Assembly: GCF_013623775.1 (NCBI RefSeq)
Contig: NZ_JABFAM010000007.1
Location: 372,001 to 436,000 of the forward strand
Length of the DNA stretch: 64,000 nt
Source of the DNA: Rufibacter sp. XAAS-G3-1
GTDB taxonomy: Bacteria; Bacteroidota; Bacteroidia; Cytophagales; Hymenobacteraceae
Reading direction: 5' to 3'
The position numbers were made by a program, and so were the translations under genes. Below the pieces are notes generated by a model. It had not been told where the DNA came from. It did not search any database and saw only the letters and a list, made by a program, of their open reading frames with translations. Below are positions 1,647-47,350 of this stretch, piece by piece (positions within the stretch are counted from its first letter, which is position 1; each line of letters begins with the position of its first letter).

Positions 1647-2009
1647 CCCCAGCCCCTCTCCCGCGATGAGGGGCTGGGGCGTTTCGGGGCTGTTCTGCGG
1701 AAAACAGGCCCGAAACGCTTGAACCTTACACACCTCCCCGGCCTGTCCCCCGACAGGCCGGAAGAATAAGCGTCTCAGCCTGCCATTCCTCTTTTTGGCT
1801 TACCAGGGAACAAGCCAAGAAAAGCATTTCCTTTTCCCTATAAGAAGCCTCGCTGCTGCGTTTTAGACCTGTTTTCTGGAAAACAAGCCCAAAACGCGGA
1901 AACCTGTGAGGTCTCTGAGCCCTCACAGGTTTAAAATCAGCTGGCGCGCGACTCCAGTTTCGTGACAAAGGATGAAGCGAGTCTCCAGACTCGGCGGGAG
2001 CCACCAGCA
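1647..2009. repeat. Composite repeat cluster in the 1616-2113 spacer
   Basis: This 498-base gap holds no convincing gene. It contains, in order: a G+C-rich hairpin (1647-1679, CCCCAGCCCCTC pairing with its complement); a copy of the dispersed palindrome family P1 (1679-1718); a second P1 copy (1858-1897); module M2, a hairpin with arms AACCTGTGAGG and CCTCACAGGTTT (1901-1932); and module M3 (1941-2009), which contains CTGGCGCG and GAGTCTCCAGACTCG and ends in CCACCAGCA. The order P1-M2-M3 recurs at 15488-15645 and, inverted, at 47231-47350. Confidence 0.8.
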
Positions 2010-2113
2010 CGAATAGGACACTTTGCAGAACTTCCTGCGTAGTATAAGCCGATCCTGTTCCCTTAGAACCTTCGGGGGCATGGGCGGGTTATTTCTTTAA
2101 AGAGGTTTGAAAG

Positions 2114-3481
2114 ATGCATTATCCTGTATTTTCTAGTAGCGTACGAGCACAGGTTTTTCTTTTAGTCTGGGGCCTTCTGCTTTTCACGGCCTGTAGCCCG
2201 CAGAACACGTTACGGGGCGTGTTCAAGAAACAGTCTCCGTATGAGAAGTACCAGGCAGGGTTGAAGGCCGCCAAACTGGACGAGACAGCCCTGGGGCAGC
2301 AATGGATGGCCGCCGGCGAACGGGCCTTGCAGCAATCGGTGCCCGTGACGCTTCCTTTTAGGGAAACCGGCTACTTTCCGGCAGACAAGCCCCTGGCGGC
2401 CAGTTACCGGTTTACGGTCAAACAGGGCCAGAAAGTGGCCGTGAAAGTACAGACCCAGGGGCAAGAAGTGGCGCAGGTGTTTCTTGACTTGTTTGAAACG
2501 GACCCAGACAATCCGGCCCAGCCCAAACAGGTTGCTTACGCAGACACCACTTCCCAAAGCCTGGAGTATGAGATTGACGAAGAGGTGCCGCATCTCCTGC
2601 GCGTGCAGCCCGAGTTGCTGAGAAGCGGACAGTACACCGTCACCATTGAGACCATGCCCTTGCTCGCGTTCCCGGTGCAGGGCAAAGACAGCCGGGCCGT
2701 GCAGAGTTTCTGGGGCCAAGACCGTGATGCCGGTGCCCGAAGACACGAAGGCATTGACATCTTTGCGCCCCGCAACACGCCCGTAGTGGCCGCCGTGGAA
2801 GGGGTGGTGACCCGCGTCAACACCACGCCCATTGGCGGCAAGGTAGTGTGGCTCTCAGACATGAAAAGGCAGCAAAGCCTGTATTACGCCCACCTGGACA
2901 GCCAACTGGTGCAACCCGGCCAACGCGTTTCCATTGGTGATACCTTGGGTTTGCTGGGCAATACCGGTAACGCGAAAACCACTGCGCCGCACCTGCACTT
3001 CGGGATTTACCGGTTTGGCCAGGGGGCGGTTGATCCCTATCCGTACGTGCATCAGGATCGCACCAAACCCGCCCCGCTGCAAGCCGATGAGAAAAAGCTG
3101 GGAAGTTGGGTGCGGGTGGCCAAGTCAAACGCTTCTTTGCGGGAGGCAGCTTCTTCCAAGGCAACTGCTTTGCAAACCCTTCCGCAGCACACTCCCCTGC
3201 AAGTTTTGGCGGGGTCTGCCACCTGGTATAGAGTCATGCTCTCCAATGGCCAGCAAGGGTACTTAGCGGCCTCATTGGTGGAAACGCTGGATACACCCAT
3301 TCAATCGGTTAGGCTGCGCCAGGAAGCGCCGCTGCTGGATGCCTCTTCGGCCCAGGCCGCTCCGCAGAAAAGCCTGAGGGTTGATTCTACCGTGCGGGTT
3401 TTGGCCAAACAGGACGAGTACTGGCTGGTGAGAGATACCAACGGCACCACCGGCTGGATTCCGGCCGAAGTCACGCGGTAA
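2114..3481 (+). CDS. M23 family metallopeptidase lipoprotein with SH3 domains
   Basis: 455 residues. The N-terminus is a lipoprotein signal ending in LLFTAC, so the protein is membrane-anchored in the envelope. Residues about 50-185 form a beta-rich region. The LytM/M23 zinc endopeptidase domain follows, with its metal ligands visible as H211-x3-D215 (HEGID) and H293-L-H295 (APHLHFG). The C-terminus (about 330-455) looks like two SH3b repeats, which usually bind peptidoglycan. All expected ligands are present, so an active peptidoglycan hydrolase is likely (family knowledge). The ATG at 2114 follows AAAGAGGTTTGAAAG, a usable ribosome site. Confidence 0.9.
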   Translation: MHYPVFSSSVRAQVFLLVWGLLLFTACSPQNTLRGVFKKQSPYEKYQAGLKAAKLDETALGQQWMAAGERALQQSVPVTLPFRETGYFPADKPLAASYRFTVKQGQKVAVKVQTQGQEVAQVFLDLFETDPDNPAQPKQVAYADTTSQSLEYEIDEEVPHLLRVQPELLRSGQYTVTIETMPLLAFPVQGKDSRAVQSFWGQDRDAGARRHEGIDIFAPRNTPVVAAVEGVVTRVNTTPIGGKVVWLSDMKRQQSLYYAHLDSQLVQPGQRVSIGDTLGLLGNTGNAKTTAPHLHFGIYRFGQGAVDPYPYVHQDRTKPAPLQADEKKLGSWVRVAKSNASLREAASSKATALQTLPQHTPLQVLAGSATWYRVMLSNGQQGYLAASLVETLDTPIQSVRLRQEAPLLDASSAQAAPQKSLRVDSTVRVLAKQDEYWLVRDTNGTTGWIPAEVTR

Positions 3482-3588
3482 GGCATTGCCTCCCAGACGG
3501 GCTGAACATTCACCTGCCTGGCACGTACTTTTGTAAAGACAAACAACGCTTCTGACCATACCCTTTTCCATCAGTCCCAGGCAAACGA

Positions 3589-4038
3589 ATGTTATGTTAT
3601 ATGGCCGAATTATGGACAGTCAAAAGCGCGCATTCCTGCATCTCCCTTGAATATGTAAAGGAGCAGGATTGGTTTTATTTGAAATGGAGCGGCCACATCA
3701 ACTCAGATGAGGTGGTTGCCGTTGCCCAAACGTATCTGGAACTGCAGCAGGAGAAACGGTGTCCCAAGCTTCTGAACGACAAAAGCGAGGTTACCGGCGA
3801 GTGGGAGGAGGCCAACTACTGGCTGCAGTTTGAATGGATGCCGCAGGTAGAGCAAACCGGCCTGCAGTATCTCGCCCTGGTGCTCTCCCATGACATGCAT
3901 GACCAAACTTCCTCCCAGGAGCTGCAGCGCAGGCTTTCCTCTGTCTGTAGCGTGGCGCTGTTCTGTGATCTGGCTGCCGCTACCCAATGGCTTTCAGGCC
4001 CTAAACCCACAGATATACGGCAGACGCTTACTTGCTAA
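3589..4038 (+). CDS. Small STAS-like protein, paralogue-like of 904-1323
   Basis: 149 residues from the first ATG; an in-frame ATG at 3601 (MAELWTV) is an equally good start. No signal peptide. The layout of an N-terminal beta hairpin (WFYLKWSGHINSDE), a central LLNDKSEV strand with conserved Asp, and a C-terminal LAAATQWLSG helix resembles the SpoIIAA/STAS-like protein 2.6 kb upstream on the same strand. The M23 peptidase gene lies between them. Function unknown; a protein-protein interaction role is only a guess. Confidence 0.6.
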   Translation: MLCYMAELWTVKSAHSCISLEYVKEQDWFYLKWSGHINSDEVVAVAQTYLELQQEKRCPKLLNDKSEVTGEWEEANYWLQFEWMPQVEQTGLQYLALVLSHDMHDQTSSQELQRRLSSVCSVALFCDLAAATQWLSGPKPTDIRQTLTC

Positions 4039-4069
4039 GTAGCAGGATAGGTTTGTAGTACGCTGCCTT

Positions 4070-4112
4070 GTTCTCCTGAGAGGATCTTGTGGGCTGACTA
4101 GAAAAGCGCATA
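4070..4112 (+). repeat. Family P2 repeat, left half only
   Basis: The sequence TCCTGAGAGGATCTTGTGGG followed by CTGACTAGAAAAGCG is the left arm of the roughly 90-base inverted-repeat family P2 (complete copies at 13776-13865 and 4471-4562). The right arm is missing and the sequence runs into the 4144-4434 repeat. Confidence 0.65.
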
Positions 4113-4143
4113 TATTGGTATTGGTTTAGTATCCGGCTGGAGC

Positions 4144-4434
4144 TGGGTTCTTTGGAGAGATTGGTAGGTGCACGCCTTCTGTGTTTCCTTGGCTTGTCCG
4201 CTTTAGTGTGGGTATCAGCAGGTGCACGCAGTTTGCTATTCCCTTGGCTTGTCTGCTTTTTGCGTGGGTGCAAGTGCTGTGTTGTTTCATCTTTGGCGGT
4301 ATGCGCTCACGGCCGCGGGGCCGCGTCTTCCCCTCTCGCACTGCCCTTTCGGCCTGAGAGGTCTATCTCTCTTAGCTCATGTCTGTCCAGGGCCAAAAGC
4401 GAGGCGCGCTCGGGAAAGACTGGAACTGGGGAAA
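4144..4434. repeat. ~290-bp dispersed repeat, copy 1
   Basis: A second copy lies at 8788-9075 in the same orientation. The two match well over the 3' 140 bases (from GCGCTCACGGCCGCGGGGCC to GACTGGAACTGGGGAA) and more loosely over the 5' half. The 5' half contains an internal duplication of about 50-55 bases, beginning near 4166 and 4219 with AGGTGCACGC and containing TTGGCTTGTC. Reading frames across it are short and not conserved between copies, so it is treated as non-coding. The G+C-rich part could fold strongly and could belong to a structured RNA or a mobile element remnant. Confidence 0.7.
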
Positions 4435-4470
4435 GTAAGTATGCGGACAAAATAGTTTGTCCTACTCTTT

Positions 4471-4562
4471 GGTTGTCCTCTTGGAAGGATCTTGGTGGCG
4501 AACAGCAATAGCGCTCCATCAAAGCTATTCTAGTTCGTCCTCAAGATCCTTTCAGATGACAA
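4471..4562. repeat. Family P2 inverted repeat (~90 bp)
   Basis: Arms are GGTTGTCCTCTTGGAAGGAT (4471-4490) and ATCCTTTCAGATGAC (4546-4560), continuing inwards through CTTGGTGGCGAAC and GTTCGTCC. It shares the GTCATCCTNNAAGGATCTNG core with copies at 12031-12120 and 13776-13865. It probably folds into a long imperfect hairpin when transcribed. Confidence 0.75.
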
Positions 4563-5141
4563 ATAGTATAACGTAATGCTGTCTCCGTACTTAGATAAAG
4601 TAATAGCAGGCAGTTAGTATACCCAATCTTATTATACCCAATCCCGCTTTTCCGGAGTTTTACTCCCCTTCTTTTGCCCGTGGTTCCCGGCGGAGTGGAA
4701 CTCCGCAGCAGGTAGGTTCGGGAGTAGAACTCCCGAACAGCAAGGAACTCCCGAGCAGCAAGGGTAGTGATTTAGGGTTGTACTAGCTGTATAGCCCCTC
4801 TTCTCCTGCAAAAGCGTATTCCCCTCCTCAGCTCATCTTATAGGAAAACTTTTGCTGATGTCGCTGCTGCGGAGTGGAACTCCAAAAGAGTGGGGATGTG
4901 TTTTGCGCGTTCTGGGCCTGTTTTGCGGAAAATGAACCTAAAACGCACCAACCCGCTTCCCCCTACAGGACGGCAGAAAAGCGCCCTAGGCTACAATCCA
5001 TGGATTTTGGCTTGCCAGGGGACAAGCCAAGGACTTCCTTTTCCCCTACAGGATTAGTTCCCGGGAGGGGTGGGTTCTGGTTCTCCACCATCTCCTTCAA
5101 ACGGATGTTGTCTGCATGCTTAGGTTGGTTGAAAGCAGCCA
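4563..5141. other. Gene-free spacer with hairpins and a P1 copy
   Basis: No credible gene. It contains small hairpins at 4690-4706 (CGGAGT/ACTCCG) and 4716-4738 (GTTCGGGAGT/ACTCCCGAAC) with repeated ACTCCCGA units after them, then a degenerate P1 palindrome at 4907-4946. Blocks such as GCGTATTCCCCTCCTC near 4815 recur near 9200, so the two spacers (4.0-5.1 kb and 8.5-9.3 kb) share several repeat segments. Confidence 0.6.
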
Positions 5142-5807: not shown

Positions 5808-5973
5808 ATCGGTTTTTTCCTATGTATACGCAAGATTCAGGGGAACGATGGTTCTCTCAGGGAATGGCCTGTCTTCAAAGAGGGTGTTTTAGGCATAGAA
5901 TTCATAAAATAGCCTGAAAACGGAAGAAAGGAAATGTTCTGGAAACGATACTTCCCGTGGGCTGTGCAAAGCA

Positions 5974-6035
5974 AACCCCCGGTTCTGTTTCGGGGCTGTT
6001 TTCTTTAAAACAGCCCCGAAACAGAACCGGGGGTT
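5974..6035. terminator. 29-bp perfect hairpin (P1 family) after the kinase gene
   Basis: Left arm 5974-6002 and right arm 6007-6035 pair perfectly over 29 bases around a CTTT loop. The core GTTTCGGGGCTGTTTT is the P1 palindrome, here extended outwards by AACCCCCGGTTCT. It lies 28 bases beyond the stop of the minus-strand kinase gene and upstream of the start of the 5142-5807 gene, so it can end the kinase transcript. Confidence 0.75.
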
Positions 6036-10337: not shown

Positions 10338-10370
10338 AGAAAAGCCTTCCCAGACGGGGAAGGCTTTTCT
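10338..10370. terminator. Hairpin terminator
   Basis: Arms AGAAAAGCCTTCCC (10338-10351) and GGGGAAGGCTTTTCT (10356-10370), followed on the plus strand by CGTTTTT. It is immediately followed by a P1 copy (10372-10407, GTTTTTAGCC/GGCTAAAAAC). No gene is seen that would be ended on the plus strand, so it may be a second stop for the minus-strand permease. Confidence 0.55.
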
Positions 10371-10410
10371 CGTTTTTAGCCTTTTCCCTGTAAAACAGGC
10401 TAAAAACAAA

Positions 10411-12213: not shown

Positions 12214-12435
12214 CTAAACCTTGCGCGGTGGTAAGTCAAACGCCACGGCATTGTGCTCAAAGTGACCTTTGTGTGAGCCGTCGCAGAAAGGCTTGTTCTG
12301 GGATAGGCCGCAGCGGCAGATAGAGACCACTTCACGGCCCTGCAGATTGTACTCGTTGCCTTGCGGATCTACGATGATAAACTCACCTTCAAGCTTCAGG
12401 GAGCCGTTATTGTTCACGGTTACTTTGGTTTTCAT
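12214..12435 (-). CDS. CDGSH iron-sulfur domain protein
   Basis: 73 residues, the whole protein being one CDGSH domain. It binds a [2Fe-2S] cluster through C40, C42, C51 and H55, all present in CRCGLSQNKPFCDGSH. The N-terminal third is a small beta sheet. Such stand-alone proteins carry electrons or clusters; the partner here is unknown. No signal peptide, so cytosolic. A MITE-like element sits 40 bases upstream of the start. Confidence 0.95.
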   Translation of the reverse strand: MKTKVTVNNNGSLKLEGEFIIVDPQGNEYNLQGREVVSICRCGLSQNKPFCDGSHKGHFEHNAVAFDLPPRKV

Positions 12436-12474
12436 GCTGTTTTTAAAAAAATAGAGGTAAAACGGTAAATAGAT

Positions 12475-13865: not shown

Positions 13866-14131
13866 AGGGAGGGAAGAAGCTAAATTACTTCTGTCTAATT
13901 ACTTACTACCCTGTATCGTTCTTGATTCATTGATGGGCTCTGCTGGAAATATCTGGGCAGGGCTTTTGTTTTTGGCCTGTTTTTAGTAATATAGGGTAAA
14001 AAGGATATTGCCCGCTAGAAGGTATAATGCACCGCCGGTTTTGGCGTTGTTCTTGCAGTAGGCAGGATAGTTGTCCCTTCAGGAAAGTTTTTACCTTTGA
14101 AGAGACATGCTCTAAATTGAAAAAACAAACC

Positions 14132-14845: not shown

Positions 14846-14896
14846 GAGGGGCGTTTTCTGGCTAGTTTCACAAAAACTAGCCAGAAAACGCCCCTC
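14846..14896. terminator. 23-bp perfect bidirectional terminator (P1 family)
   Basis: Left arm 14846-14868 and right arm 14874-14896 pair perfectly around CACAA. The core GCGTTTTCTGGCTAGTTT is a P1-type palindrome. It lies between the convergent genes 14132-14785 (+) and 14904-15191 (-), seven bases past the second stop, so it can serve both. Confidence 0.8.
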
Positions 14897-15454: not shown

Positions 15455-15645
15455 CCCCAGCCCCTCTCCCACGGAGAGGGGAGTTCCGTTTCTTCGTTTT
15501 GGGGCTGTTTTGCGGAAAACAGCCCCAAAACGAAGAAACCTGTGCGGTCTCCAAGACCTCATCGGTTTAGAATGAACTGGCGCGAGACGCCAGTCTCGTG
15601 CCTAAGGAGGAAGCGCGTCTCCAGACTCGCCGGGAACCACCAGCA
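15455..15645. repeat. Composite repeat P1-M2-M3
   Basis: The region 15192-15788 has no gene I can support. It holds a CCCCAGCCCCTCTCCC segment (also at 1647), a P1 palindrome with 24-base perfect arms (15488-15511 and 15516-15539, loop GCGG), module M2 (15537-15569, AACCTGTGCGGTCTCC) and module M3 (15577-15645, with CGTCTCCAGACTCGCCGGGA and ending CCACCAGCA). Same order and orientation as 1858-2009. Confidence 0.8.
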
Positions 15646-15788: not shown

Positions 15789-18281
15789 ATGACCCCTGTA
15801 CGTGTGTTAGTGGCCTTCTTTCTCCTGGTCTGGGGATTGGGAACTTCCACCTCAATGGCCCAGGCTCCCAAGAAACCCAATGCCGCTGATATCAGGCTGG
15901 CGCTGGAAAAGCTGAATGTGCTGGGCAGCGTTCTCTATTTTGCCGCCCACCCAGATGACGAGAACACCCGCCTCATTGCCTACCTGGCCAACGAACGGAA
16001 AATGCGCACCGGTTACCTGTCCCTCACGCGCGGCGACGGCGGCCAAAACCTGATTGGCCCCGAAATACGCGAAGAACTGGGCATTATTAGGACGCAGGAA
16101 CTGCTGCAGGCCCGCCGCATAGACGGTGGCGAGCAGTTCTTCAGCCGGGCCAATGACTTCGGGTTCTCCAAGCACCCCGCCGAGACGTTTACCATCTGGA
16201 ACAAAGAACAGGTACTGGCCGATGCCGTCTGGATCATCCGTAAGTTCCGCCCTGATGTCATCATTACCCGTTTCTCGCCGCAGCCCAGCGGCACGCACGG
16301 GCACCACACCGCCTCGGCCATGATTGCCCTGGAAGCCTTTGATGCCGCCGCTGACCCCAAACGCTTTCCCGAGCAACTGAAAGCGGTGGAGCCGTGGCAA
16401 GCCAAACGCCTGCTCTGGAATACGTCTTCTTTTTTCTACGGACAGGGGCAGCAATTTGACGCTTCAGATAAGATCATGCTAGACGCCGGAGGCTACAACC
16501 CGTTGCTGGGCAGATCCTATAATGAGATTTCGGCCCAGAGCCGAAGCATGCACAAAAGCCAGGGATTTGGGAGCAGCGGCACCAGGGGTGAGGCCGTAGA
16601 ATATTTTGAATTCCTGAAAGGCGCTCCCGCCAAAAAAGATGTGCTGGAAGGCGTAAACACTACCTGGAGCCGCGTGCCGGGCAGCAAAGACGTAGACAAA
16701 CTCTTGCAGGAGGCGCTGAAAAATTATAATTCGGCTAATCCGGCTGCTTCGGTGCCCACCTTATTAAAGGCGAATTCGGCCTTGGCCAAACTGCCGGCTT
16801 CTTACTGGAAAAACCTGAAAGAGCAGGAATTGCAGGAAGTCATCAAGAACTGCCTGGGTCTGTACCTGGAGGCGACATCGGTGAGGGAGTATTCGGTGTC
16901 GCCGGGCGAACCGGTGGCGGTATCGCTGGAAGCAACCAACCGTTCTGCCGTTCCGGTGACGCTCACCAAAGTAGAATACCTGTTCGTTCATCAGGACACC
17001 ACCCTGCAGCAGAAACTGGAACTGAACCAACCGCTGTTTATCAGAACCTCCAGAACTATCCCGTTGGCTACTCCTTATTCCCAGCCGTATTGGTTACGTG
17101 TGCCAGGCTCCACTGGGATGTTCCGGGTAGATGATCCCGCTTTGATTGGTTTGCCTGAAAACCCGGCGGCCGCCCAGTTGAGGGTACATCTTACCGTGCA
17201 GGGGCAGCCCATTTCTTACACGTTGCCGGTGGTCTACAAACGCACCGACCCCGTGGAGGGGGAGCAGTACCGCCCGTTCGAGATTGCCCCGCCCGTTTTC
17301 GTGAACATCACGGAGAAAGTGTACGTCTTCGCCGATGCCCAGCCCAAGCCCGTCACGGTGCGCGTTCGCGCCGGGAAAGACCAGATGGAAGGAACGGTGG
17401 CACTGCGTCTGCCCGAAGGCTGGCGTTCTGAACCTGCTACCGGAACTTTCAAGCTAACCCAGAAAGGCGAGGAACAGAGTTTCACGTTTATGGTACATCC
17501 GGGCACCGCCCAAACCGAAAGTGCCATCAGCGCCGTGGTGACTACCCGGGGCAGGACTTATTCCCAAAGCTTTAGCGCCATCACCTATCCGCATATTCCT
17601 ACCCAAACCTTGTTCCCCGAGGCCGTGGCCAAAGCGGTGAAACTGGACTTGGAACGCAAAGGGCAGCACATTGGCTATTTGATGGGGGCCGGTGATGAAA
17701 TTCCTGCCAGTTTGCAACAGATTGGGTATGCCGTAGACCAACTGCACGTAGAGGCTTTATCGGCGGAGACGCTGCAGAAATACGATGCCGTGGTGGTGGG
17801 GGTGCGGGCGTACAACACCCTGGATCGTCTTAAATTCCAGCAGCCGCAGCTCCTGCAGTACGTGCAGAACGGTGGTACCCTGGTGGTGCAGTACAATGTG
17901 AGCAACGGTCTGGTGACCCCCAACGTAGGGCCGTACCCCATAAAGCTGTCCAATGACCGGGTAACGGTGGAAGACGCTGCCGTACGTTTCCTGAAACCCA
18001 ACCATCCGGTACTCAATACGCCCAACAAGATCACCCAGCAGGATTTCAGAGGTTGGGTGCAGGAGCGCGGCCTGTATTTCCCCGGCCAGTGGGCCCCGGA
18101 ATATGAGGCAATTCTTTCGTCTAACGATCCCGGCGAAACGCCCAAAGACAGCGGGTTGCTGGTGGCCAAATACGGGAAAGGGTATTACGTGTACACCGGC
18201 TATTCCTTCTTCCGGGAACTACCTGCGGGTGTGCCGGGCGCGTACCGCTTGTTCGTGAACCTGCTCTCTTTAGGGAAGTAG
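15789..18281 (+). CDS. PIG-L family deacetylase, large secreted form
   Basis: 830 residues from the ATG at 15789 (a TTG at 15780 is also in frame). Signal peptide ends near SMAQA. The N-terminal 250 residues are a PIG-L/LmbE zinc deacetylase domain with H54-P-D-D-E58 and the second metal motif THGHH (His170-173). These enzymes remove N-acetyl from sugars or related conjugates. The middle (about 370-590) looks like two Ig-like beta domains, and the last 200 residues (LMGAGDEIPASLQQIGYAVD, YDAVVVGVRAYN, NGGTLVVQYN) resemble a glutamine amidotransferase-like Rossmann domain. The small family members are about 250 residues, so most of this protein is added domains. Likely periplasmic; substrate unknown. 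Confidence 0.88.
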   Translation: MTPVRVLVAFFLLVWGLGTSTSMAQAPKKPNAADIRLALEKLNVLGSVLYFAAHPDDENTRLIAYLANERKMRTGYLSLTRGDGGQNLIGPEIREELGIIRTQELLQARRIDGGEQFFSRANDFGFSKHPAETFTIWNKEQVLADAVWIIRKFRPDVIITRFSPQPSGTHGHHTASAMIALEAFDAAADPKRFPEQLKAVEPWQAKRLLWNTSSFFYGQGQQFDASDKIMLDAGGYNPLLGRSYNEISAQSRSMHKSQGFGSSGTRGEAVEYFEFLKGAPAKKDVLEGVNTTWSRVPGSKDVDKLLQEALKNYNSANPAASVPTLLKANSALAKLPASYWKNLKEQELQEVIKNCLGLYLEATSVREYSVSPGEPVAVSLEATNRSAVPVTLTKVEYLFVHQDTTLQQKLELNQPLFIRTSRTIPLATPYSQPYWLRVPGSTGMFRVDDPALIGLPENPAAAQLRVHLTVQGQPISYTLPVVYKRTDPVEGEQYRPFEIAPPVFVNITEKVYVFADAQPKPVTVRVRAGKDQMEGTVALRLPEGWRSEPATGTFKLTQKGEEQSFTFMVHPGTAQTESAISAVVTTRGRTYSQSFSAITYPHIPTQTLFPEAVAKAVKLDLERKGQHIGYLMGAGDEIPASLQQIGYAVDQLHVEALSAETLQKYDAVVVGVRAYNTLDRLKFQQPQLLQYVQNGGTLVVQYNVSNGLVTPNVGPYPIKLSNDRVTVEDAAVRFLKPNHPVLNTPNKITQQDFRGWVQERGLYFPGQWAPEYEAILSSNDPGETPKDSGLLVAKYGKGYYVYTGYSFFRELPAGVPGAYRLFVNLLSLGK

Positions 18282-18319
18282 TGTTTTGGGGCTGTTTTTG
18301 TAAAAATAGCCTTGAAACA
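18282..18319 (+). repeat. P1 palindrome directly after the PIG-L stop
   Basis: TGTTTTGGGGCTGTTTTTG pairs imperfectly with TAAAAATAGCCTTGAAACA. It begins at the base after the stop codon. Probable terminator or 3' end stabiliser. Confidence 0.65.
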
Positions 18320-18354
18320 GTTTGTAAGCGTAAAGACAAAGAAATTCATAAACT

Positions 18355-21189: not shown

Positions 21190-21237
21190 AAAATCGACTC
21201 CCCGCGGAAGGAGCTTCTTCCGCGGGGAGTCGATTTT
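21190..21237. terminator. 21-bp hairpin between convergent genes
   Basis: Arms 21190-21210 and 21217-21237 (AAAATCGACTCCCCGCGGAAG and its complement) around GAGCTT, with A- and T-rich flanks. Serves the nitroreductase (+) and DUF2911 (-) genes. A degenerate P1 copy (21236-21270) runs up to the DUF2911 stop codon. Confidence 0.8.
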
Positions 21238-21269
21238 TAGGGTGTTTTCCTGAAACTAGGCCGAAAACG

Positions 21270-22145
21270 TTATTTCTTGTTTTTGATCTCTGCCAGAAGC
21301 TTCTCGTTCAAGGCCACGTAGTCTGCGTTGCTTTCTTTTTTGGCCAGTTCAATGGATTTCTGAGCGGTGGCAGCAGCTCCTTTGTAATCTTTCAACTGTG
21401 CCTGGATTTTGGCTTGTTGGTGCAGCGTGTAGAACTTAGGGTCTTTCTCGTTGGCTTGTTTAATCCAGGTCAACGCCTGCTTCATGTCTTTGTTGTTTTC
21501 AGCGTAATAATTGGCCGCCGCCGCATACAAAGCGGGGGTTACATTGGTTCCGTTTACAACTTTCTCCTGAATCTGGCTCATTACTTTGGCATCTACCTCA
21601 GTGGTGATTTTTACCGGTACCAGGGTGTTCTCCCACATAATCTGGAGGGTGGCGCCGTTGTTGGTCAGATCGGCGAAGCCGATGGTGAATGTTTCAACTT
21701 TAGCGCTCAGTTTTTTAGGGGTCACCTTGAAACGCACCAAGTCTTCTTCGGCTTTGTAGTTGTTTCCGCCCTCGCCCCAGTGCTTGGTGTTTTTGTGGAT
21801 GACTACAGTCCACTCTTTCTCCCCCGGAATGGTGTACAACGCGTACTGACCGGCCGCAACCTTATTTCCTTCCAGCATCACCTCATCTGAGAAGGTCAGT
21901 TTGGTAGAGGCATTGGCCCCGGTGCGCCACAGTTTTCCGTAGGGAGCCAGATCTCCGAAGATCTTGCGGCCTTTGGTGCTGGGGCGCGAGTACTCAACGG
22001 TTACATCAGTTAAGCCAACGGTCTGTTTCACCGTGGCGGCGGGGCTGGCAGCGGGCATCTTGATTTGAGCAGATGCTGCAGGGCCCATCAGGAACATGGC
22101 AAACGCAAGCGCCCATACCAAATTCAGGGTTAAAATCTTTTTCAT
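21270..22145 (-). CDS. DUF2911 domain protein with TPR-like tail
   Basis: 291 residues. Signal peptide 1-26 (to ASAQ). Residues about 35-165 are a DUF2911 domain, with VEYSRPSTKGRKIFG, LWRTGANASTKLTF and YTIPGEKEWTVVIHKN, all typical. The C-terminal 110 residues are helical and read as three TPR-like repeats (ALYAAAANYYAENN, ALTWIKQANEKD, KIQAQLKDYKGAA). The protein should be periplasmic or outer-membrane associated. DUF2911 has no settled function; it is common and often highly expressed in Bacteroidota. Confidence 0.92.
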   Translation of the reverse strand: MKKILTLNLVWALAFAMFLMGPAASAQIKMPAASPAATVKQTVGLTDVTVEYSRPSTKGRKIFGDLAPYGKLWRTGANASTKLTFSDEVMLEGNKVAAGQYALYTIPGEKEWTVVIHKNTKHWGEGGNNYKAEEDLVRFKVTPKKLSAKVETFTIGFADLTNNGATLQIMWENTLVPVKITTEVDAKVMSQIQEKVVNGTNVTPALYAAAANYYAENNKDMKQALTWIKQANEKDPKFYTLHQQAKIQAQLKDYKGAAATAQKSIELAKKESNADYVALNEKLLAEIKNKK

Positions 22146-22427: not shown

Positions 22428-22485
22428 AGAGAGCTATTTTCCGTTTCAAGCCTGTTTTCTTAAAAGCAGCCCCAAAACGACCTGC

Positions 22486-25160: not shown

Positions 25161-25212
25161 AACACTGGCACAAAACAAATGAAACTACGGCAAGTTAGGA
25201 AAAGAAAGCGTG

Positions 25213-25252
25213 CGTTTTATGCCTGTTTTCGCGAAAACAGGCATAAAACGCC
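25213..25252. repeat. P1 palindrome, perfect copy
   Basis: A 40-base perfect palindrome: arm GCGTTTTATGCCTGTTTTC (25213-25231) and its complement (25234-25252). This is the cleanest copy of the family, and it stands 53 bases upstream of the 24663-25160 gene. Confidence 0.85.
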
Positions 25253-25330: not shown

Positions 25331-25523
25331 GCCGGTGGTTCCCGGGGGCCTGGAGACTCGCTCCAGAAGACCTCGCAGCGTCTTTAGACCTGCGGGTGTC
25401 TGCGCCGATAGCTCGCCAATCAGGAGATTGGCTGTCCAAGGGTGCGTAGAGCGCTCGCGCTAACTCTACGCACAACTATCAAATGGTTTTAAGCCTATTT
25501 TCTGCAAAACAGGCTTAAAACGC
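25331..25523. repeat. Repeat cluster: diverged M3/M2, hairpin and P1
   Basis: In the 25161-25694 spacer: an inverted and diverged M3 segment (25331-25362, CCGGTGGTTCCCGGG then CCTGGAGACTCGCTCCAG); AGACCTCGCAGCGTC/AGACCTGCGGGTGTC, which resembles M2; a hairpin TGCGTAGAG/CTCTACGCA (25443-25472); and a P1 copy (25485-25523, GTTTTAAGCCTATTTTCTGC). The order M3-M2-P1 is the inverted form of 1858-2009. Confidence 0.65.
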
Positions 25524-26975: not shown

Positions 26976-27022
26976 CTTCTGTTTGGGGCCTGTTTTCCTG
27001 AAAGCAGGCCCCAAACAGGAAG
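26976..27022. terminator. Hairpin between convergent genes (P1 family)
   Basis: Arms CTTCTGTTTGGGGCCTGTTT (26976-26995) and its near-complement (27003-27022). It begins the base after the protease stop and ends four bases before the stop of the oppositely oriented dehydrogenase. Confidence 0.8.
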
Positions 27023-27889: not shown

Positions 27890-27997
27890 GTTTTCTGATT
27901 TTGGTGCGCACGAAAGTAGGAATTTACGGATGCAGGACGCAAGTGGTACACGCCAAGCTTCGTTTCAGGCACATTTCTTGGGAAACGGCTTTGAAAC

Positions 27998-28032
27998 AGA
28001 AAGGCCGCTGTTTATACAAGAGCGGCCTTTCT
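27998..28032 (-). terminator. Hairpin terminator of the CocE/NonD hydrolase gene
   Basis: Arms AGAAAGGCCGCT (27998-28009) and AGCGGCCTTTCT (28021-28032), 20 bases past the hydrolase stop on the minus strand. A diverged P1-like pair (GTTTCAGGC/TTTGAAAC) lies just beyond. Confidence 0.65.
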
Positions 28033-29929: not shown

Positions 29930-30037
29930 ACGTGTTTGTTTGGTGTGATTTGGTACGGGAAATTAGAGAATCTACCGGCGGGAGACAACATCTATTTGGG
30001 GGCTGTTTTCAGAAAAACAACCTCAAAACGGAGAACC

Positions 30038-30923: not shown

Positions 30924-31324
30924 GGTAGTGTAAAATTGAGTAAGAAGTGAATTGTCTTTTTTTGAATGAGATGCAAAGCGCTTTTATGCATTTTCAAGAG
31001 TATAGACACAGTGACTTCTCTTTACCCCTAATGCTATCCCAACTTTTTTTAGTTATATTTATCTGTAGCAACATCTGTATAATCTAAAGGCGACAGAAGC
31101 AGGAGAGGTGGAATGAAATCCTCTTCGCCATCCAACCATGATCTGCCCTGAAATAAAAAGCAGATTCTTTTACCAGCCGTAGGAGGGTTTAGGGGAAAGC
31201 GTTTTTAGGGTATTTTTTAAAAAACAGCCCCAAAACGCACCTGCCGCACCTTATTCTTTCGCCTATTTTTTTAAACTTTGGAGATTGCGTAACACCCGGG
31301 TTCCGCGTACACAAGCCAATCATT
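30924..31324. other. Spacer with one P1 copy
   Basis: About 400 bases between divergent genes. A P1 palindrome lies at 31199-31238 (GCGTTTTTAGGGTATTTT/CAGCCCCAAAACGC, imperfect). Otherwise AT-rich with no gene seen. Promoters of both divergent genes must lie here, but no full TTTG-N19-TAnnTTTG was found. Confidence 0.5.
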
Positions 31325-34623: not shown

Positions 34624-34660
34624 AAACAGGAACGCCCGCCACTTGCGGGCGTTCCTGTTT
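34624..34660 (+). terminator. 16-bp hairpin terminator after vapC
   Basis: Arms AAACAGGAACGCCCGC (34624-34639) and GCGGGCGTTCCTGTTT (34645-34660) around CACTT, 31 bases after the toxin stop and ending in TTT. Confidence 0.75.
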
Positions 34661-34770
34661 ATGAGCCATTTTTTAGGAAACAGCCTCAAAAGACGTTTGT
34701 GCGTATGAAACTTCAATGGTTTCCTTCTAAATTTAGAAGCGAAATCCATGAACCGCTAACCCGATACCCT

Positions 34771-36231: not shown

Positions 36232-36360
36232 GGCACAATAAGAGTTCTAGTACCTAATGGTCTGCGTTTTTGGCCTGTTTTCAGGAAAAGGGAAGCAAAC
36301 TGCCTTTGCGTAAGGGAGCCCCTGATTTCCGTTTCTGAAGTGTTTTGATGGAAACGTGCC

Positions 36361-36713: not shown

Positions 36714-36755
36714 GCTGTTTTAGACCCAGTTTATAGAAAACAGCCTGAAAACGGC
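36714..36755. repeat. P1 palindrome upstream of the Rieske gene
   Basis: GCTGTTTTAGACCCAGTTT pairs imperfectly with GAAAACAGCCTGAAAACGG. It stands between the Rieske start and the terminator of the first putative small RNA. Confidence 0.55.
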
Positions 36756-36948: not shown

Positions 36949-37200
36949 CCCAAAGATGAGGAAGCGGCCTTTTTCCTGTCTGAACCTAGACAAAGCCGGA
37001 GTGAAGTGGAAAGCACAGGAGTGAGACCGCTTACGGCCTACCTGGAATGAGGACGACCGCTCTATTTCTTACCACCGTGTCACGTTCAATCATCTAAAAA
37101 ATCCCAAGTCCGTTTCTGTGCTGTTTTTTTGAAAAGAGCCTATAAACGGGCAGCAATGAAACGGGAGGTAGTCCTGGAAAAGTAATGATAACCTAAAACA

Positions 37201-41126: not shown

Positions 41127-41168
41127 TCCGGTTTGGGCCAAAGTTCGGAAAAACAGGCCGTAAACGGA
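41127..41168. repeat. P1 palindrome between priA and 41177-41653
   Basis: CCGGTTTGGGCCAAAGTTC and AAAACAGGCCGTAAACGG pair in part. It fills most of the 55-base gap between the priA start and the next gene's stop. Confidence 0.55.
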
Positions 41169-41759: not shown

Positions 41760-43793
41760 TCAAATACGACGGACTTGTTCCAGGGCATCGGCCACGGATT
41801 GTACCGGCAGTTGGCAGGCACGGTTGTAACAGACATAGATGGTGGTTTGTCCGCCCTGCGCGGTGCGGTCTTCCAATAAAGGCAGGGTGGAGGAATCTTC
41901 CTCTTTGGTGCCGGCCAGAAGGGCGTTGGGTAGAAAGTGCTGCTGCAAGAGGCTCCTGAAAGAATGGGCTTCCGGGCCCACAATGGCAATCTCGGCGGTA
42001 GGTTTCAGTTTAAGGAAGTAGAGCGAGGCCCAGTTGGCTAGGTGGGAGGGTTCTTGCACTACCAGGTCGCGCACTTTGGAGAGCATTCTGTCTGACAGGC
42101 TGGAATAACGCTCTTTTTCTAAAAACAAGCCTAAAACGTGCAGGTTCATGGCCATCACTGAGTTGGAGGCGGGTACCACGTTGTCAAAAATCTCTTTTTT
42201 GCGGGCAATCAGTTGCTCCCCTGCGTTGCTGGTAAAGAAGAAAAGCTCTTCGGTTTCATCAAAGAAATGGGTGAGCGTATAATCCGTGAGGTTTCTGGCC
42301 TCTTTTAGCCAAATCTCGTCAAAAGTGACCTGGTACATGCCCAGCAACGCTTGAATCAGGAGGGCGTAGTCTTCCAGGAAACCGTCAATGGTGGCTTTGC
42401 CTTCTTTGTAGTTGTGGAAGAGTCGGTCTCCTTTTTTTAAGTTATTCAGGAGGAAATGGGCGTTGGTGCAGGCAAGTTCCAATATTTTAGCTTCACCGAA
42501 GGCACGGTACGCATCGGTGAGGCCGAGGAGCAGGAGGGCGTTCCAGGAGGTGAGAATCTTGTCATCCAGGCCCGGTCTGGGGCGCTGGGCTCTCGCTTGC
42601 AGAAGCGTGTCTTTCCAGTTCTGGACGTGCTCCTGCAGTTCTTCCAGAGAAAGTCCCTGGTCGGCGGCGAAGGCTTCATCGGTTTGGCGGCGGTGCAGAA
42701 TGTTGATGCCGTTTTCCCAGTTTCCTTCTTCAGAGGTGTGGTAGTATTTGCTCGCTACTTCAACTTCTGCGCCTAGTATTTCATTTAGTTCGGCTTGGGT
42801 GAACACGTAGAACTTGCCCTCCTCGCCTTCACTATCGGCATCCAGCGACGAGTAAAAGCCACCCTCGGGGCTGGTGAGTTCCCGTTCCACAAACCCGATG
42901 GTCTCCATGCCTACTTGCCGGTATAGTTCATTGCGGGTCACCTGGTAGGCTTCGGCGTAAAGACTAAGGAGTTGTCCGTTATCGTAGAGCATCTTCTCAA
43001 AATGCGGCACCAGCCATTCCTCATCGGTGGAATAACGGGCGAACCCGCCGCCAATCTGGTCATAGATTCCGCCGAAGGCCATTTCTTCCAACGTGAGGTT
43101 TACTTGCTCCAGCGCCGCCGGGTCTTGGCTGTAATGGTAATAGCGTAGCAGAAAGCGCCAGATACTGGGCATGGGGAATTTGGGGGCTTGGCTGGTGCCA
43201 CCGCGTTTGAAGTCAAAGCGGCGCTTCAAGTTGGTGAACATCTGCTCAAAAGCCTCTGAATTGAAGTCAGGATTGCCCTGCCGGAGGCCGTATTTTGCCA
43301 GTTCACTCTGCTGTAAATGCTGCACGAACTGTTCGGCAGATGTATCTAACTCTCGGCGGCTTTTGGTGTAGGCTTCCGCTATGTTTTGGAGCAACTGTTT
43401 CCAGTGCTGGGGCGGGAAATACGTGCCCCCGTAGAAAGGCTTCGCGTCTGAGTTCAGGAACACGTTGAGGGGCCAGCCGCCTTGTACCCCCATGGCCTGA
43501 AGGGCATCCATGTACACCTGGTCAACATCGGGCCGTTCCTCGCGGTCTACCTTGATGCAGACAAAGTGCTGGTTCATGACCTGGGCAATCTCTTCTTTTT
43601 CAAAGGATTGATGCTCCATCACGTGGCACCAGTGGCAGGCCGCGTACCCAATGCTCACCAGAATAGGTTTCTGCTCATCTTTGGCTTTCTGCAGGGCTTC
43701 AGTTCCCCAAGGGTACCAATCTACCGGGTTATAGGCATGTTGCAACAGATACGGGCTAGACTCCTGAGCAAGGCGGTTGGACTTTCTTTCCAT
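41760..43793 (-). CDS. Thioredoxin-domain protein, YyaL/DUF255 family
   Basis: 677 residues, the usual length for YyaL-like proteins (related to human SPATA20). The N-terminal thioredoxin-like domain has the active-site motif [14 protein letters not shown] and [14 protein letters not shown]; the rest is an alpha/alpha toroid like six-hairpin glycosidases ([34 protein letters not shown]). No signal peptide, so cytosolic. The reaction is not known. Inside it, at 42120-42140, lies a half P1 arm (AAAACAAGCCTAAAACG) read in frame as part of [10 protein letters not shown]. Confidence 0.93.
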
Positions 43794-43817
43794 TTTTCTA
43801 AATGTGAGATGATGAGT

Positions 43818-43853
43818 GTTTCAGACCTCTTTTTAAGAAATAAGGCCTGAAAC
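43818..43853 (-). repeat. P1 palindrome after the GSCFA gene
   Basis: GTTTCAGACCTCTTTTTAAG pairs with its near-complement (TAAGGCCTGAAAC). It lies four bases past the GSCFA stop on the minus strand and just upstream of the YyaL-like gene. Confidence 0.65.
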
Positions 43854-43857
43854 GGCG

Positions 43858-44841: not shown

Positions 44842-44886
44842 AGGCAGGAGGGGCGAAGTGGCCCGCGAAGATAGTTATTTCTGTTG

Positions 44887-45570
44887 TTACGCTTTGGCTG
44901 CCACCAGCGGGTACAGTTCTTCTAAAGAATGAATGGTATACGTGGGCTGGGCGGCTAAACAGATTTCTTCTGCTCCGTACCCGTACGCGGCCCAACAAGA
45001 GGCAAGCCCGGCGTTTTTCGCGAAAAGCAAATCAGGTTCGGTGTCGCCCACCATCAGCATCTGGGAAGCAGAACATTGGGAATAATGCGGCTTTATCACC
45101 TGCTCGTACGCCATTGGGTCTGGTTTCTTTTTGAGCGGCTTTTTAGGATTATCGCCCACAATCATGTCAAAGTACTGCCGAAGATGGAAGCGCTCCAGGG
45201 AGTCTTCTATGGCGCGCTGGCCTTTGTTGCTGATGACCACGCAGGCAATTCCCTCTTTCTTCAGACGAGGCAACAGTTCCTCCACCCCCGGGAACAAGGT
45301 GGTAAGCCGGCCCCCATCGGTGTCATAGATATGACGGTAATGAAGTACCCAATCTTCCAGTTCCTCGGGGTTGCCTTGCAGCGGCGGATGCAACAAGGGC
45401 AATAGTTCTGAAAGGTTTCCGCCGGTACCAATGGCTTGTCTAATGGCATCTGGTGATGGCGGCGTGATTCCTTTCTGGTCAAACGCCTGCTTGAAAGAAT
45501 AAAGAATGGCGTTCTCTGTGGCACACAAAGTACCGTCAAAATCAAAGATGACTACAGGGTAGGGAAGCAT
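44887..45570 (-). CDS. HAD family phosphatase, phosphoglycolate phosphatase-like
   Basis: 227 residues from the ATG at 45570 (a start at 45612 would add 14 residues with no fit). HAD motif I is D10-F-D12-G-T (VVIFDFDGTLC), motif II is VVISNKGQ, and motif III/IV are seen as KKKPDP and VGDTEPDLLFAKNAGL. The cap is the small helical type of Gph. It should remove phosphate from 2-phosphoglycolate or a similar small molecule in the cytosol. Substrate not proven. Confidence 0.92.
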   Translation of the reverse strand: MLPYPVVIFDFDGTLCATENAILYSFKQAFDQKGITPPSPDAIRQAIGTGGNLSELLPLLHPPLQGNPEELEDWVLHYRHIYDTDGGRLTTLFPGVEELLPRLKKEGIACVVISNKGQRAIEDSLERFHLRQYFDMIVGDNPKKPLKKKPDPMAYEQVIKPHYSQCSASQMLMVGDTEPDLLFAKNAGLASCWAAYGYGAEEICLAAQPTYTIHSLEELYPLVAAKA

Positions 45571-45677
45571 AGAAAAGAAGAAAGGAGTAAACAACCCAAT
45601 ACTCCAGCGCACTCGCTTTTGTTGTTGAGCTGTTTGCTGGGCTTTATAATGCGGCCAGTAAATCTTTCAGATACAGC

Positions 45678-45716
45678 GGTTTTAAGCTGTTTTCCTGAAA
45701 ATAGATAAAAAACGGG
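45678..45716. repeat. P1-like palindrome upstream of the HAD gene
   Basis: CGGTTTTAAGCTGTTTTCCT pairs loosely with GAAAATAGATAAAAAACGG. Part of the 45571-45791 spacer, which has no gene. Confidence 0.45.
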
Positions 45717-45791
45717 GCGACTGGCTTTAGGAGATCCGTTTCTGGGGTGTTTTCTGTAAATCTTTGGCAAACTGGAGAAGGCATAAAACAA

Positions 45792-45820
45792 GACATCCTG
45801 CCGGAGTGCGGCAGGATGTC
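45792..45820 (-). terminator. Hairpin terminator of the rplI operon
   Basis: Arms GACATCCTGCCG (45792-45803) and CGGCAGGATGTC (45809-45820), 27 bases past the rplI stop, followed on the minus strand by TTGTTTTATG. Confidence 0.7.
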
Positions 45821-45846
45821 TGTAATGGATAAGAAGTTGCGTGAAC

Positions 45847-46290
45847 CTAGGCGGCTACCACATTGAAACGTACTTGGTGTTTCACTTCTTTGTGCAGGTT
45901 CAAGGTAGCGGTGTACTCGCCTAATGATTTCACCTCTTGGTCAAAATCAACGCGCTTACGGTCTACATCGTAGCCAAGGGCTTTCAGGGCCTCAGAAACT
46001 TGCAAGGTGGTCACCGCACCGAAGATTTTGCCAGACTCACCTGCTTTGGCAGGGATTTCCAACACAGTGTCACCAATACGGTTGGCTAAGTCTTGCGCGT
46101 CTTTCTGGAATTTCTCTGCTTTGTGCGCCGCCTGGCGGGTGTTCTCAGCCGCCACTTTGCGGGCAGAAGGGGTAGCCATTTCGGCTAAGCCTTGTGGGAT
46201 CAAATAATTACGGCCGAAACCTGGCTTTACTTTGACAATGTCGTTTTTGTAGCCAACGCCTTTCACGTCATCTTTAAGAATAACTTCCAT
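45847..46290 (-). CDS. rplI: 50S ribosomal protein L9
   Basis: 147 residues. The opening MEVILKDDVKGVGYKNDIVKV then GFGRNYLIPQGLA is the L9 N-terminal domain that binds 23S rRNA; a connecting helix (AAENTRQAAHKAEKF) and the C-terminal domain follow. It is the last gene of the rpsF-rpsR-rplI operon, 14 bases after rpsR. Full length and intact. Confidence 0.98.
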   Translation of the reverse strand: MEVILKDDVKGVGYKNDIVKVKPGFGRNYLIPQGLAEMATPSARKVAAENTRQAAHKAEKFQKDAQDLANRIGDTVLEIPAKAGESGKIFGAVTTLQVSEALKALGYDVDRKRVDFDQEVKSLGEYTATLNLHKEVKHQVRFNVVAA

Positions 46291-46304
46291 CTCTTTTTAC
46301 CTCC

Positions 46305-46556
46305 TTATTTTAAAGAATCTGTTACGTAAGGCAAAATAGCCAAGTGGCGTGCTCTGGCAACCGCCTGAGATACACGACGCTGGAACTTTAAGCTGGTTCC
46401 GGTTAAACGGCGCGGTAATAATTTACCTTGCTCGTTCACGAACTTCAATAAGAAGTTACCGTCTTTGTAGTCAATGTACTGGATTCCGTTTTTCTTGAAA
46501 CGGCAGTATTTCTTGCGCGTGTCTTGCTTGTGGATTTTTTCGTTTACTAAACTCAT
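46305..46556 (-). CDS. rpsR: 30S ribosomal protein S18
   Basis: 83 residues, normal length. KKYCRFKKNGIQYIDYKD and the conserved RLTGTSLKFQRRVSQAVARARHLAILPY are the S18 signature; S18 binds S6 on the small-subunit platform. Its start overlaps the rpsF stop by four bases (ATGA). Confidence 0.98.
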   Translation of the reverse strand: MSLVNEKIHKQDTRKKYCRFKKNGIQYIDYKDGNFLLKFVNEQGKLLPRRLTGTSLKFQRRVSQAVARARHLAILPYVTDSLK

Positions 46557-46924
46557 GACGCTTGGGCCTCCTTCTCTTTTTTAGATGATTTGAATTCACC
46601 GTTTCTGCGGCGCGCATTGTAAGCAACAGCGTGCTTATCCAGGGCGGTGGTCAAGAAGCGGATGATTTTTTCATCACGACGGAAAGCAAGTTCCAATGCA
46701 TCTACAATAGTAGAAGGGCCTTGGAACTCAACGAGGTGATAGAAGCCTGTGTTCTTCTTCTGAATTGGGTACGCCAGTTTTTTTAGGCCCCAGTTCTCCT
46801 CGTGAATAATGTCGGCGCCATTTTCCTTAAGCACCTGTCTGAACTTCTCGACCGTCTCTGTCATCTGCGCCTCGTTCAGCAACGGGGTCATGATGTAGAG
46901 TACTTCGTAATTTTTTAAAGTCAT
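46553..46924 (-). CDS. rpsF: 30S ribosomal protein S6
   Basis: 123 residues from the ATG at 46924 (MTLKNYEVLYIMTPLL); the frame continues upstream to 46966 but across the promoter. NYEVLYIMTP, WGLKKLAYPIQKKNTGFYH and FRRDEKIIRFLTT are typical S6. As in other Bacteroidota, no ssb gene separates rpsF from rpsR. The operon is read from the promoter at 46953-46983. Confidence 0.98.
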   Translation of the reverse strand: MTLKNYEVLYIMTPLLNEAQMTETVEKFRQVLKENGADIIHEENWGLKKLAYPIQKKNTGFYHLVEFQGPSTIVDALELAFRRDEKIIRFLTTALDKHAVAYNARRRNGEFKSSKKEKEAQAS

Positions 46925-46952
46925 TTGAAAAAATGATTTTGGTTCGAAGGGG

Positions 46953-46983
46953 CAAAGGTAAGGCAATATCCAACAGAAACCAA
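46953..46983 (-). promoter_or_regulatory. Promoter of the rpsF-rpsR-rplI operon
   Basis: On the minus strand, TTGG (46980-46983), 19 bases, then TACCTTTG (46953-46960), a full -7 match and three of four at -33. The rpsF ATG is 29 bases downstream of the -7 box. Confidence 0.65.
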
Positions 46984-47230
46984 GAAAGGGGTAAGATAAA
47001 GTGCGTCAGAGAAGATGGGCTTACTCCAAGACTGTTTTAACGCTGTTTTTTAGAAATTAAGGGAAAACTGCAAACCAATTAAAAGGGGAGAGCCACTGAT
47101 AAAAATTGCTCTGTCTTTAATGGAATAAGAGACAGGTGGTATCCAGAAAACTAGGGGCACCGCTCTAAAAGTTTATATATGTAGCCTGCCAACTTTGTGC
47201 TGTCTTGGCTCTACAACTGACCACGCAATC

Positions 47231-47350
47231 CTGCCGGAGGCTCCGACGAGTCTGGAGACTCGCGCCAGTTTACTTTACACCCGTGAGGTCTTGGATGCCT
47301 CACAGGTGATGTGTTTTGAGCCCGTTTTCCGCAAAAAAGCCCCCAAACGC
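47231..47350. repeat. Composite repeat M3-M2-P1, inverted
   Basis: Read left to right: diverged M3 (47231-47269, CTGCCGGAGGCTCCGACGAG then TCTGGAGACTCGCGCCAG), M2 (47280-47306, CCGTGAGGTCTTGGATGCCT then CACAGG) and P1 (47311-47350, TGTTTTGAGCCCGTTTTCC / AAAAGCCCCCAAACGC). This is the reverse order and strand of the composites at 1858-2009 and 15488-15645. Another loose P1 pair is near 47030-47062. Confidence 0.75.

Follow-up and report, generated by a model that had tools for sequence, protein, structure and literature searches.

Transcription in bacteria is taught to end by one of two mechanisms, an RNA hairpin or Rho. Repetitive extragenic palindromes (REPs) are reported to sit near 3' ends, in spacers between convergent or unidirectional genes (PMC3733652). 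The DNA uptake sequences (DUS) of Neisseriaceae, according to passages of another source, have a high copy number, species dialects and inverted pairs at gene ends (PMC3630211). Here, we describe P1, a palindrome family of Rufibacter sp. XAAS-G3-1 (hereafter, the host) that was noticed in a stretch of 64,000 nt (the window) within a 462-kb contig of the 5.3-Mb host genome. As a whole, P1 is best explained as a two-way transcription-unit boundary bound by a putative dimeric protein, an explanation to which we give about even chances and in which we infer the protein, its binding and its effect on transcription from sequence.

The original prediction held that the window contains a dispersed palindrome family with over 20 copies. 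All 22 of the copies that it listed coincide with a profile match, and 40 matches lie in the window, 30 of them with a score of at least 26. At the profile threshold used, 436 kb of the same contig gave 315 matches and the reversed 436 kb gave 9; a consensus scan of this region found 268 sites, and none in the reversed sequence. Genes, called here and throughout with a simple purpose-written finder whose starts are approximate, make up 75% of the 436 kb, yet 14 of the 268 sites lie more than half within them and 23 have any gene overlap; the predicted enrichment in spacers is thus present. In the whole host genome, the P1 half-site with up to two mismatches occurs 1691 times forward and 1635 times reverse, as compared with 42 and 49 for the reversed pattern. 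Per-genome profiles in five genomes, namely the host, R. latericius (G003), R. hautae (G004), R. immobilis (G005) and a further genome, G007, gave 315, 322, 326, 240 and 170 sites (1373 in total), with 9, 9, 8, 1 and 0 in the reversed controls. PriA from the window shares 96% identity with that of Rufibacter sediminis and 87–95% with eight other Rufibacter records listed. P1 has the form of a high-copy intergenic palindrome of 20–40 bp that is part of the definition of a tagged REP, and the original prediction was right both in calling its distribution REP-like and in setting its sequence apart from the REPs of E. coli. No match to the curated RNA families of Rfam was found in the window at gathering score, and no account of P1 was found in the literature searched on Rufibacter palindromes, Bacteroidetes REPs, Bacteroidetes intrinsic terminators or the intergenic repeats of Hymenobacter.

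The geometry of P1 is rigid. Among exact dyads over the five genomes, the gap between the arms is 4 bp in 446 cases, 3 bp in 30 and 5 bp in 5; the loop of 2–5 bases originally described has to be replaced by a fixed gap of 4. The inner gap of the arm is likewise 9 in 446 exact dyads, against 4 dyads for the remaining gaps between 5 and 13 taken together, and the T-tracts within one arm are 11 bp apart. Half-sites outside P1 number 12, 59, 46, 0 and 1 in the five genomes, versus 7, 41, 42, 0 and 0 in the control. Since lone half-sites are near the control level, the pair is the unit of P1. The two arms vary almost independently: columns 2–10 from the centre lie within about two standard errors of independence in each of the five genomes, with one value at +2.3. 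In the four genomes other than R. immobilis, columns within an arm are also near-independent (correlations up to 0.25) and correlations between arms are low (r = 0.08–0.21), close to what a weight-matrix binding site would give. P1 thus combines the fixed dyad geometry and the independently varying half-sites of a dimeric DNA-binding-protein site, within the limits that outer columns correlate somewhat and that the arms of R. immobilis are internally linked.

The central two bases avoid self-complementarity in R. immobilis (observed/expected 0.06/0.34), R. latericius (0.14/0.27), R. hautae (0.18/0.25) and G007 (0.18/0.37), and do not avoid it in the host (0.27/0.27). A constant polarity of the asymmetric centre was considered and rejected. 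In tandem spacers, the commonest central 4-mer gave same/opposite counts of 24/26, 17/22, 10/10, 5/2 and 6/2, and orientation by expectation-maximisation gave 78/51 in R. immobilis, 17/37 in R. hautae and 35/27, 36/30 and 39/34 in the other three genomes, with no constant direction.

The exact dyad GTTT-N9-TTT-N4-AAA-N9-AAAC occurs in 186–1561 copies each in 16 out of 16 Rufibacter genomes searched (control 0–2). The same dyad has 0–3 copies each in 188 other genomes of the family. A sample from across the phylum added 394 other genomes, three of them from the family, with 0–4 copies each (control 0–5). As far as searched, the P1 family is confined to the genus Rufibacter. Within the genus it has dialects: GTTTAGGGGCTSTTTTT in R. 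immobilis, CGTTTTTGGCCTGTTTTC in G007, and a looser motif in the host genome, R. latericius and R. hautae. R. immobilis has two arm types, and its 239 elements comprise 106 with both arms of the new type, 113 with one and 20 with none; by simple arithmetic, independent arms would predict about 115, 102 and 22. The new-type letters go together inside an arm (correlations between columns reach 0.74), but the two arms are not linked in this respect (r = 0.08). At orthologous sites, 49 out of 83 arms have A in column 6 in R. immobilis where the host has T, and the dialect has therefore changed in place. The block linkage within arms hints at copying of arms. Overwriting of whole elements was rejected as the sole cause in R. 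immobilis, because the arms carry the dialect independently.

P1 lies at gene ends. Summed over the five genomes, it occupies 179 out of 197 convergent spacers of at least 100 bp (by genome 44/45, 35/41, 38/39, 37/38 and 25/34) and 477 out of 700 tandem spacers. For spacers of 100–400 bp, the fractions with P1 are 121/133 for convergent, 347/537 for tandem and 86/170 for divergent spacers, and P1 density over the 436 kb is highest between convergent genes. The closeness of copies to stop codons, noted earlier, is borne out, for example by the copy at 18281..18320 directly after a stop. For tRNA ends as P1 sites, the sample comprised only seven tRNAs.

The place of P1 is also conserved between species. 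Four species could be compared at 165 spacers: P1 is present in every species at 85 of them, in none at 52, and the other 28 are mixed. If presence were independent, about 24 spacers would be expected to carry P1 in every species, by arithmetic that leaves spacer length uncontrolled. P1 is present in all four species in 25 out of 29 convergent spacers. Positions agree within 12 bp in 261 out of 445 comparisons, versus 17% for random placement. At 57 sites matched in the four species, the flanks are 39–46% identical and the eight central TTT/AAA columns 91–100%, the latter figure being partly circular because the sites were chosen by profile.

On average, the strength of the arms follows the direction of transcription. 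Arms that face a gene end outscore arms that face a gene start (pooled p = 2.5e-7), with the same direction in four out of five genomes, and the stop-facing arm is the stronger one in 378 out of 668 tandem spacers. The paired p values for arm strength are 0.12 in the host, 0.046 and 0.034 in the next two genomes and 0.00015 in R. immobilis, while G007 gives 0.33 in the opposite direction. In seven further species the stop-facing arm is again stronger (43/68, p = 0.003), all of these sites being counterparts of the window's region and sharing ancestry. Where an R. immobilis element in a tandem spacer is mixed, the arm next to the upstream gene is the one of the new type in 50 out of 69 cases. 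Hairpins abut P1 in 101 out of 596 convergent flanks, 109 out of 1336 tandem flanks and 17 out of 384 divergent flanks, versus 20 out of 1158 in shuffled sequence; 71 of those in tandem spacers lie upstream of P1 and 38 downstream. Taken together, the bias in arm strength, the bias of the new-type arm and the abutting hairpins tie each arm to transcription from its own side.

We propose that P1 is a double-stranded DNA dyad in which two half-sites (GTTTTnRGSCTGTTTT, about 18 bp each) mirror one another and their cores are separated by exactly 4 bp. Each half-site would be recognised separately, most likely by one subunit of a putative dimeric Rufibacter DNA-binding protein. At the ends of transcription units, P1 would form a two-way boundary whose arms each act on RNA polymerase coming from their own side, either as a roadblock or as a termination aid. 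Some copies would stand beside an ordinary terminator hairpin, which could use the outer GTTT as its U-tract. There is good support for P1 as a selected DNA dyad at the ends of transcription units, and its role as a boundary is probable. The binding of a dimeric protein that hinders RNA polymerase is a tentative proposal, to which we give somewhat less than an even chance.

Several results tell against such a boundary. Divergent spacers also carry P1: 154 out of 255 of those of at least 100 bp over the five genomes, and 20 out of 22 of those longer than 400 bp in the host. The arm-strength effect is modest, does not reach significance in the host alone (p = 0.12) and is missing from G007 (47/97, mean reversed), and orthologous P1 sites are not independent samples. 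Stems run beyond the motif in 99 out of 240 near-perfect copies (at most 3 mismatches of 18), as they would in RNA or DNA hairpins. The block copying suggested by the linked arms of R. immobilis (r up to 0.74) is not predicted by simple binding-site evolution. Rho is present in 35 out of 35 genomes searched, the host included, and canonical terminators coexist with P1, being found at 44 out of 96 host convergent ends. Within 250 nt of these 96 ends, 41 have P1 without a canonical match, 18 have P1 and a separate canonical match, 18 have the two overlapping, 12 have a canonical match only and 7 have neither. The loss of Rho as the context of P1 was rejected on the count of genomes just given, and the replacement of ordinary terminators by P1 was rejected as both occur together. 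P1 is therefore an addition to these mechanisms, not a replacement. As a separate observation, canonical terminators were found at 191 out of 258 convergent ends in 52 Hymenobacter loci; the same detector gave 44/96, 58/106, 29/76 and 59/98 in four Rufibacter samples.

Alternatively, P1 could consist of REP-like selfish or semi-domesticated palindromes that spread before the radiation of the genus through a lost or undiscovered mobiliser, accumulated at permissive gene ends and were homogenised within species. We consider this unlikely. The distribution of P1 resembles that reported for REPs (PMC3733652), and the dialects replaced older letters in place, as at column 6 (49/83 arms). Three runs of host genes without a mapped counterpart contain 11 P1 copies (2.49 per kb of noncoding DNA versus 2.89 overall), and the linkage within R. 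immobilis arms also fits such a history. However, presence or absence is concordant in 137 out of 165 spacers over four species, convergent spacers are nearly saturated with P1, and the dialect is carried by arms, not by whole elements. No GTAG or CGTC tag stands in register in the flanking columns of P1; an out-of-register tag was not sought. The REP-associated tyrosine transposase (RAYT) for which the original prediction suggested a search did not turn up: no cognate gene flanked by P1 was found, and the only PF01797 match of the host lies between palindromes of another kind. In G007, PF01797 gave no match at E 0.001, yet this genome has 1202 and 1186 half-sites per strand. A RAYT-driven REP was rejected on the lack of a cognate gene. 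The host's Y1 (RAYT-like) transposase match, at G000:C3 108149-108373 (L031 ~1180-1910), has its own pair of inverted flanking palindromes, which are rare (1 and 2 matches in 436 kb).

P1 could also be the site of a nucleoid-associated protein or a topoisomerase that organises the chromosome, by way of phased T-tracts or the relief of supercoils between converging genes, and that does not itself take part in termination. An extrapolated copy number in the thousands, a density that peaks between convergent genes, the 11-bp spacing of the T-tracts and an asymmetric centre without constant orientation to genes would all suit such a site. It would not account for arm strength that follows the side of incoming transcription, or for hairpins that abut P1, and we regard it as unlikely.

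The original prediction itself read the matching differences between the arms as compensatory changes and so as selection on RNA structure. In this view, P1 would be an RNA hairpin with a role in ending transcription or in shielding the 3' end. If the arms pair in RNA, then covariation between them is expected. Across the 268 host sites, most core columns show just the Watson-Crick pairing expected of independent arms, and columns 11–13 from the centre show more. The central C/G column has GG in 63 sites, CG in 59, GC in 57 and CC in 45. On the transcribed strand, G-U (197 observed, 200 expected) is not favoured over A-C (170 observed, 175 expected). When all 1373 sites are pooled, which adds the differences between dialects, columns 7 and 9 show a small pairing excess (z = 3.6 and 3.2), and a clear excess appears at columns 11–13 and 18–22. 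The excess is strongest in the near-perfect copies, which number 240 out of 1373, as compared with about 149 from shuffled arms. The other 1133 copies have at least 4 mismatches of 18, and among these column 12 is above its null (0.40 versus 0.33), while columns 5, 6 and 8 are below theirs.

The surplus of near-perfect copies, some 7% of the total, gives the covariation seen in the window. The 30 strong copies of the window are listed below, with strand unassigned (.), the profile score, and mismatches counted among 18 pairs.

784..823 (.): P1 copy, score 26.5, 5 mismatches
1679..1718 (.): P1 copy, score 39.6, 2 mismatches
1858..1897 (.): P1 copy, score 47.3, 3 mismatches
4907..4946 (.): P1 copy, score 36.4, 6 mismatches
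5884..5923 (.): P1 copy, absent from the earlier list, score 28.1, 9 mismatches
5985..6024 (.): P1 copy within a 29-bp perfect stem (5974-6035), score 44.7, 0 mismatches
10370..10409 (.): P1 copy, score 34.5, 4 mismatches; P1 in the orthologous spacer of 4/4 mapped relatives
12426..12465 (.): P1 copy, absent from the earlier list, score 35.8, 7 mismatches
13966..14005 (.): P1 copy, absent from the earlier list, score 35.9; same spacer has P1 in 4/4 mapped relatives
14851..14890 (.): P1 copy, long stem (14846-14896, -45.1 kcal/mol), register shifted by one, score 27.9
15494..15533 (.): P1 copy, long stem (15488-15539), score 50.2, 0 mismatches
18281..18320 (.): P1 copy immediately 3' of a stop codon, score 46.7; same place in 4/4 mapped relatives
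21231..21270 (.): P1 copy, score 37.0, 9 mismatches
22441..22480 (.): P1 copy, score 45.9, 6 mismatches
25212..25251 (.): perfect P1 copy, score 45.6, 0 mismatches
25484..25523 (.): P1 copy, score 45.3, 3 mismatches
26979..27018 (.): P1 copy taking up a convergent spacer of 50 bp, score 38.9; present in 5/5 mapped relatives; paired changes in relatives keep the stem
27960..27999 (.): P1 copy, absent from the earlier list, score 26.4
29992..30031 (.): P1 copy, score 41.7
31199..31238 (.): P1 copy, score 47.2; P1 somewhere in the orthologous spacer of 5/5 mapped relatives
34655..34694 (.): P1 copy, absent from the earlier list, score 34.2
36264..36303 (.): P1 copy in a convergent spacer, absent from the earlier list, score 32.8; long stem and T-run there in two relatives
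36715..36754 (.): P1 copy, score 39.1
37110..37149 (.): P1 copy, score 41.9
41128..41167 (.): P1-like copy just upstream of priA, score 31.6; in 7/7 mapped relatives, flanks conserved too
42100..42139 (.): P1-like match within a gene, possibly chance, score 28.6, 10 mismatches
43816..43855 (.): P1 copy, tandem spacer of 64 bp, score 37.6; matches in 8/9 mapped relatives at threshold
45676..45715 (.): P1 copy, score 37.5; in 8/8 mapped relatives
47032..47071 (.): P1 copy, absent from the earlier list, score 30.7
47311..47350 (.): P1 copy, score 39.3

In the window's 30 strong copies, covariation is 0.217, versus 0.151 +/- 0.015 in shuffles, and was reached by none of 500 shuffles. Of the 48 two-sided changes, 34 fall in the nine outer pairs; among the 14 that remain, 7 belong to a single inner pair (columns 11 and 30). 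In the spacer at 26976-27022, the stem is maintained by paired changes in six species. Since the window sample is rich in well-formed copies and covaries above its shuffles, the original prediction saw something that is true of a minority: compensatory change holds for that minority, and covariation between the arms is present in outer columns and slight or absent in the inner ones within each of the five genomes. A T-run (at least 6 T among 9 bases, on one side or both) accompanies 43 of the 99 extended near-perfect copies, versus 21 of the 141 that are not extended, and extended copies with a T-run may double as ordinary terminators. A stable stem followed by a U-tract, as in an intrinsic terminator, is found in only a minority of P1 copies, and over tandem spacers T is barely enriched after P1 (0.295 downstream versus 0.279 upstream). 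Selection on an RNA stem was retained for the minority and rejected as the general cause, given the near-independent inner columns and the many mismatches; the fixed gap of 4 and the lack of a G-U preference also speak against it. As an account of P1 as a whole, the RNA hairpin is improbable, and P1 looks more like a protein-binding transcription boundary mark.

A DNA uptake signal in inverted pairs, as in Neisseriaceae, would share the copy number, species dialects and inverted gene-end pairs of P1 (PMC3630211, in part), but it is highly improbable and was rejected, since single oriented half-sites show no clear excess outside pairs in the five genomes and stay near control level, and since intragenic positions are common in Neisseria according to the same passages.

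At the P1-like site beside priA (41128-41167), the conservation of the flanks is unlike that of the other aligned copies, and this site may have another role. A run of genes on one strand occupies window positions 48028-63674; the two of its proteins that were examined match multihaem cytochrome and molybdopterin/iron-sulfur families, of the kind known from alternative complex III. It contains no P1 match, as would be expected if P1 marks operon ends. Two other short repeats, CCTGTGAGGTCTT and TGGCGCGAGACT, have 19 and 22 matches in the 436 kb and 0–4 each in four relatives. In the window they lie at 1903, 1942, 15578, 21107, 47267 and 47280, and some directly adjoin P1.

If P1 acts through a bound protein, it would add a third mechanism of termination, based on a DNA mark that is found throughout the genus at most gene ends and whose strength depends on the direction of transcription. 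In its fullest form, this would be a general, sequence-specific, protein-based boundary system evolved in one genus, with thousands of dyads, one at nearly every convergent junction, half-sites that stop polymerase from their own side and dialects that shift with the protein; so far-reaching a version is doubtful. Even if P1 is a domesticated repeat, it would show that a repeat family can keep its inherited places across deep divergence, with sequence change proceeding one arm at a time. The P1 family thus makes concerted change of dispersed sites testable.

Among known systems, P1 belongs with the high-copy intergenic palindromes, and the boundary that we propose would form a new category if a protein were demonstrated together with its effect. 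Like REPs, bacterial interspersed mosaic elements (BIMEs) and REPINs, P1 is a short intergenic palindrome that lies near 3' ends, numbers hundreds to thousands of copies and is most abundant between convergent and unidirectional genes. Unlike them, it has no in-register GTAG or CGTC tag and no cognate RAYT that we found; its gap and arm geometry are rigid, its inner columns are near-independent, its place is common to species, and it occurs in one genus only in the genomes searched. With paired DUS and uptake signal sequences that serve as terminators, P1 shares copy number, species dialects and inverted pairs at gene ends, but the unit of P1 is the pair, with no clear enrichment of single half-sites, and few copies lie in genes. 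With intrinsic terminators it shares a place at the ends of transcription units, and a minority of copies have long stems and a T-run; most P1 copies, however, are poorly paired, lack a T-run and keep a fixed gap, and canonical terminators exist alongside them. We know of no sequence-specific roadblock at most transcription-unit ends of any bacterium. In its proposed action, P1 would resemble the roadblocks made by DNA-bound proteins, such as operators and bridged H-NS filaments, for a dimeric dyad readable from either side could stop RNA polymerase.

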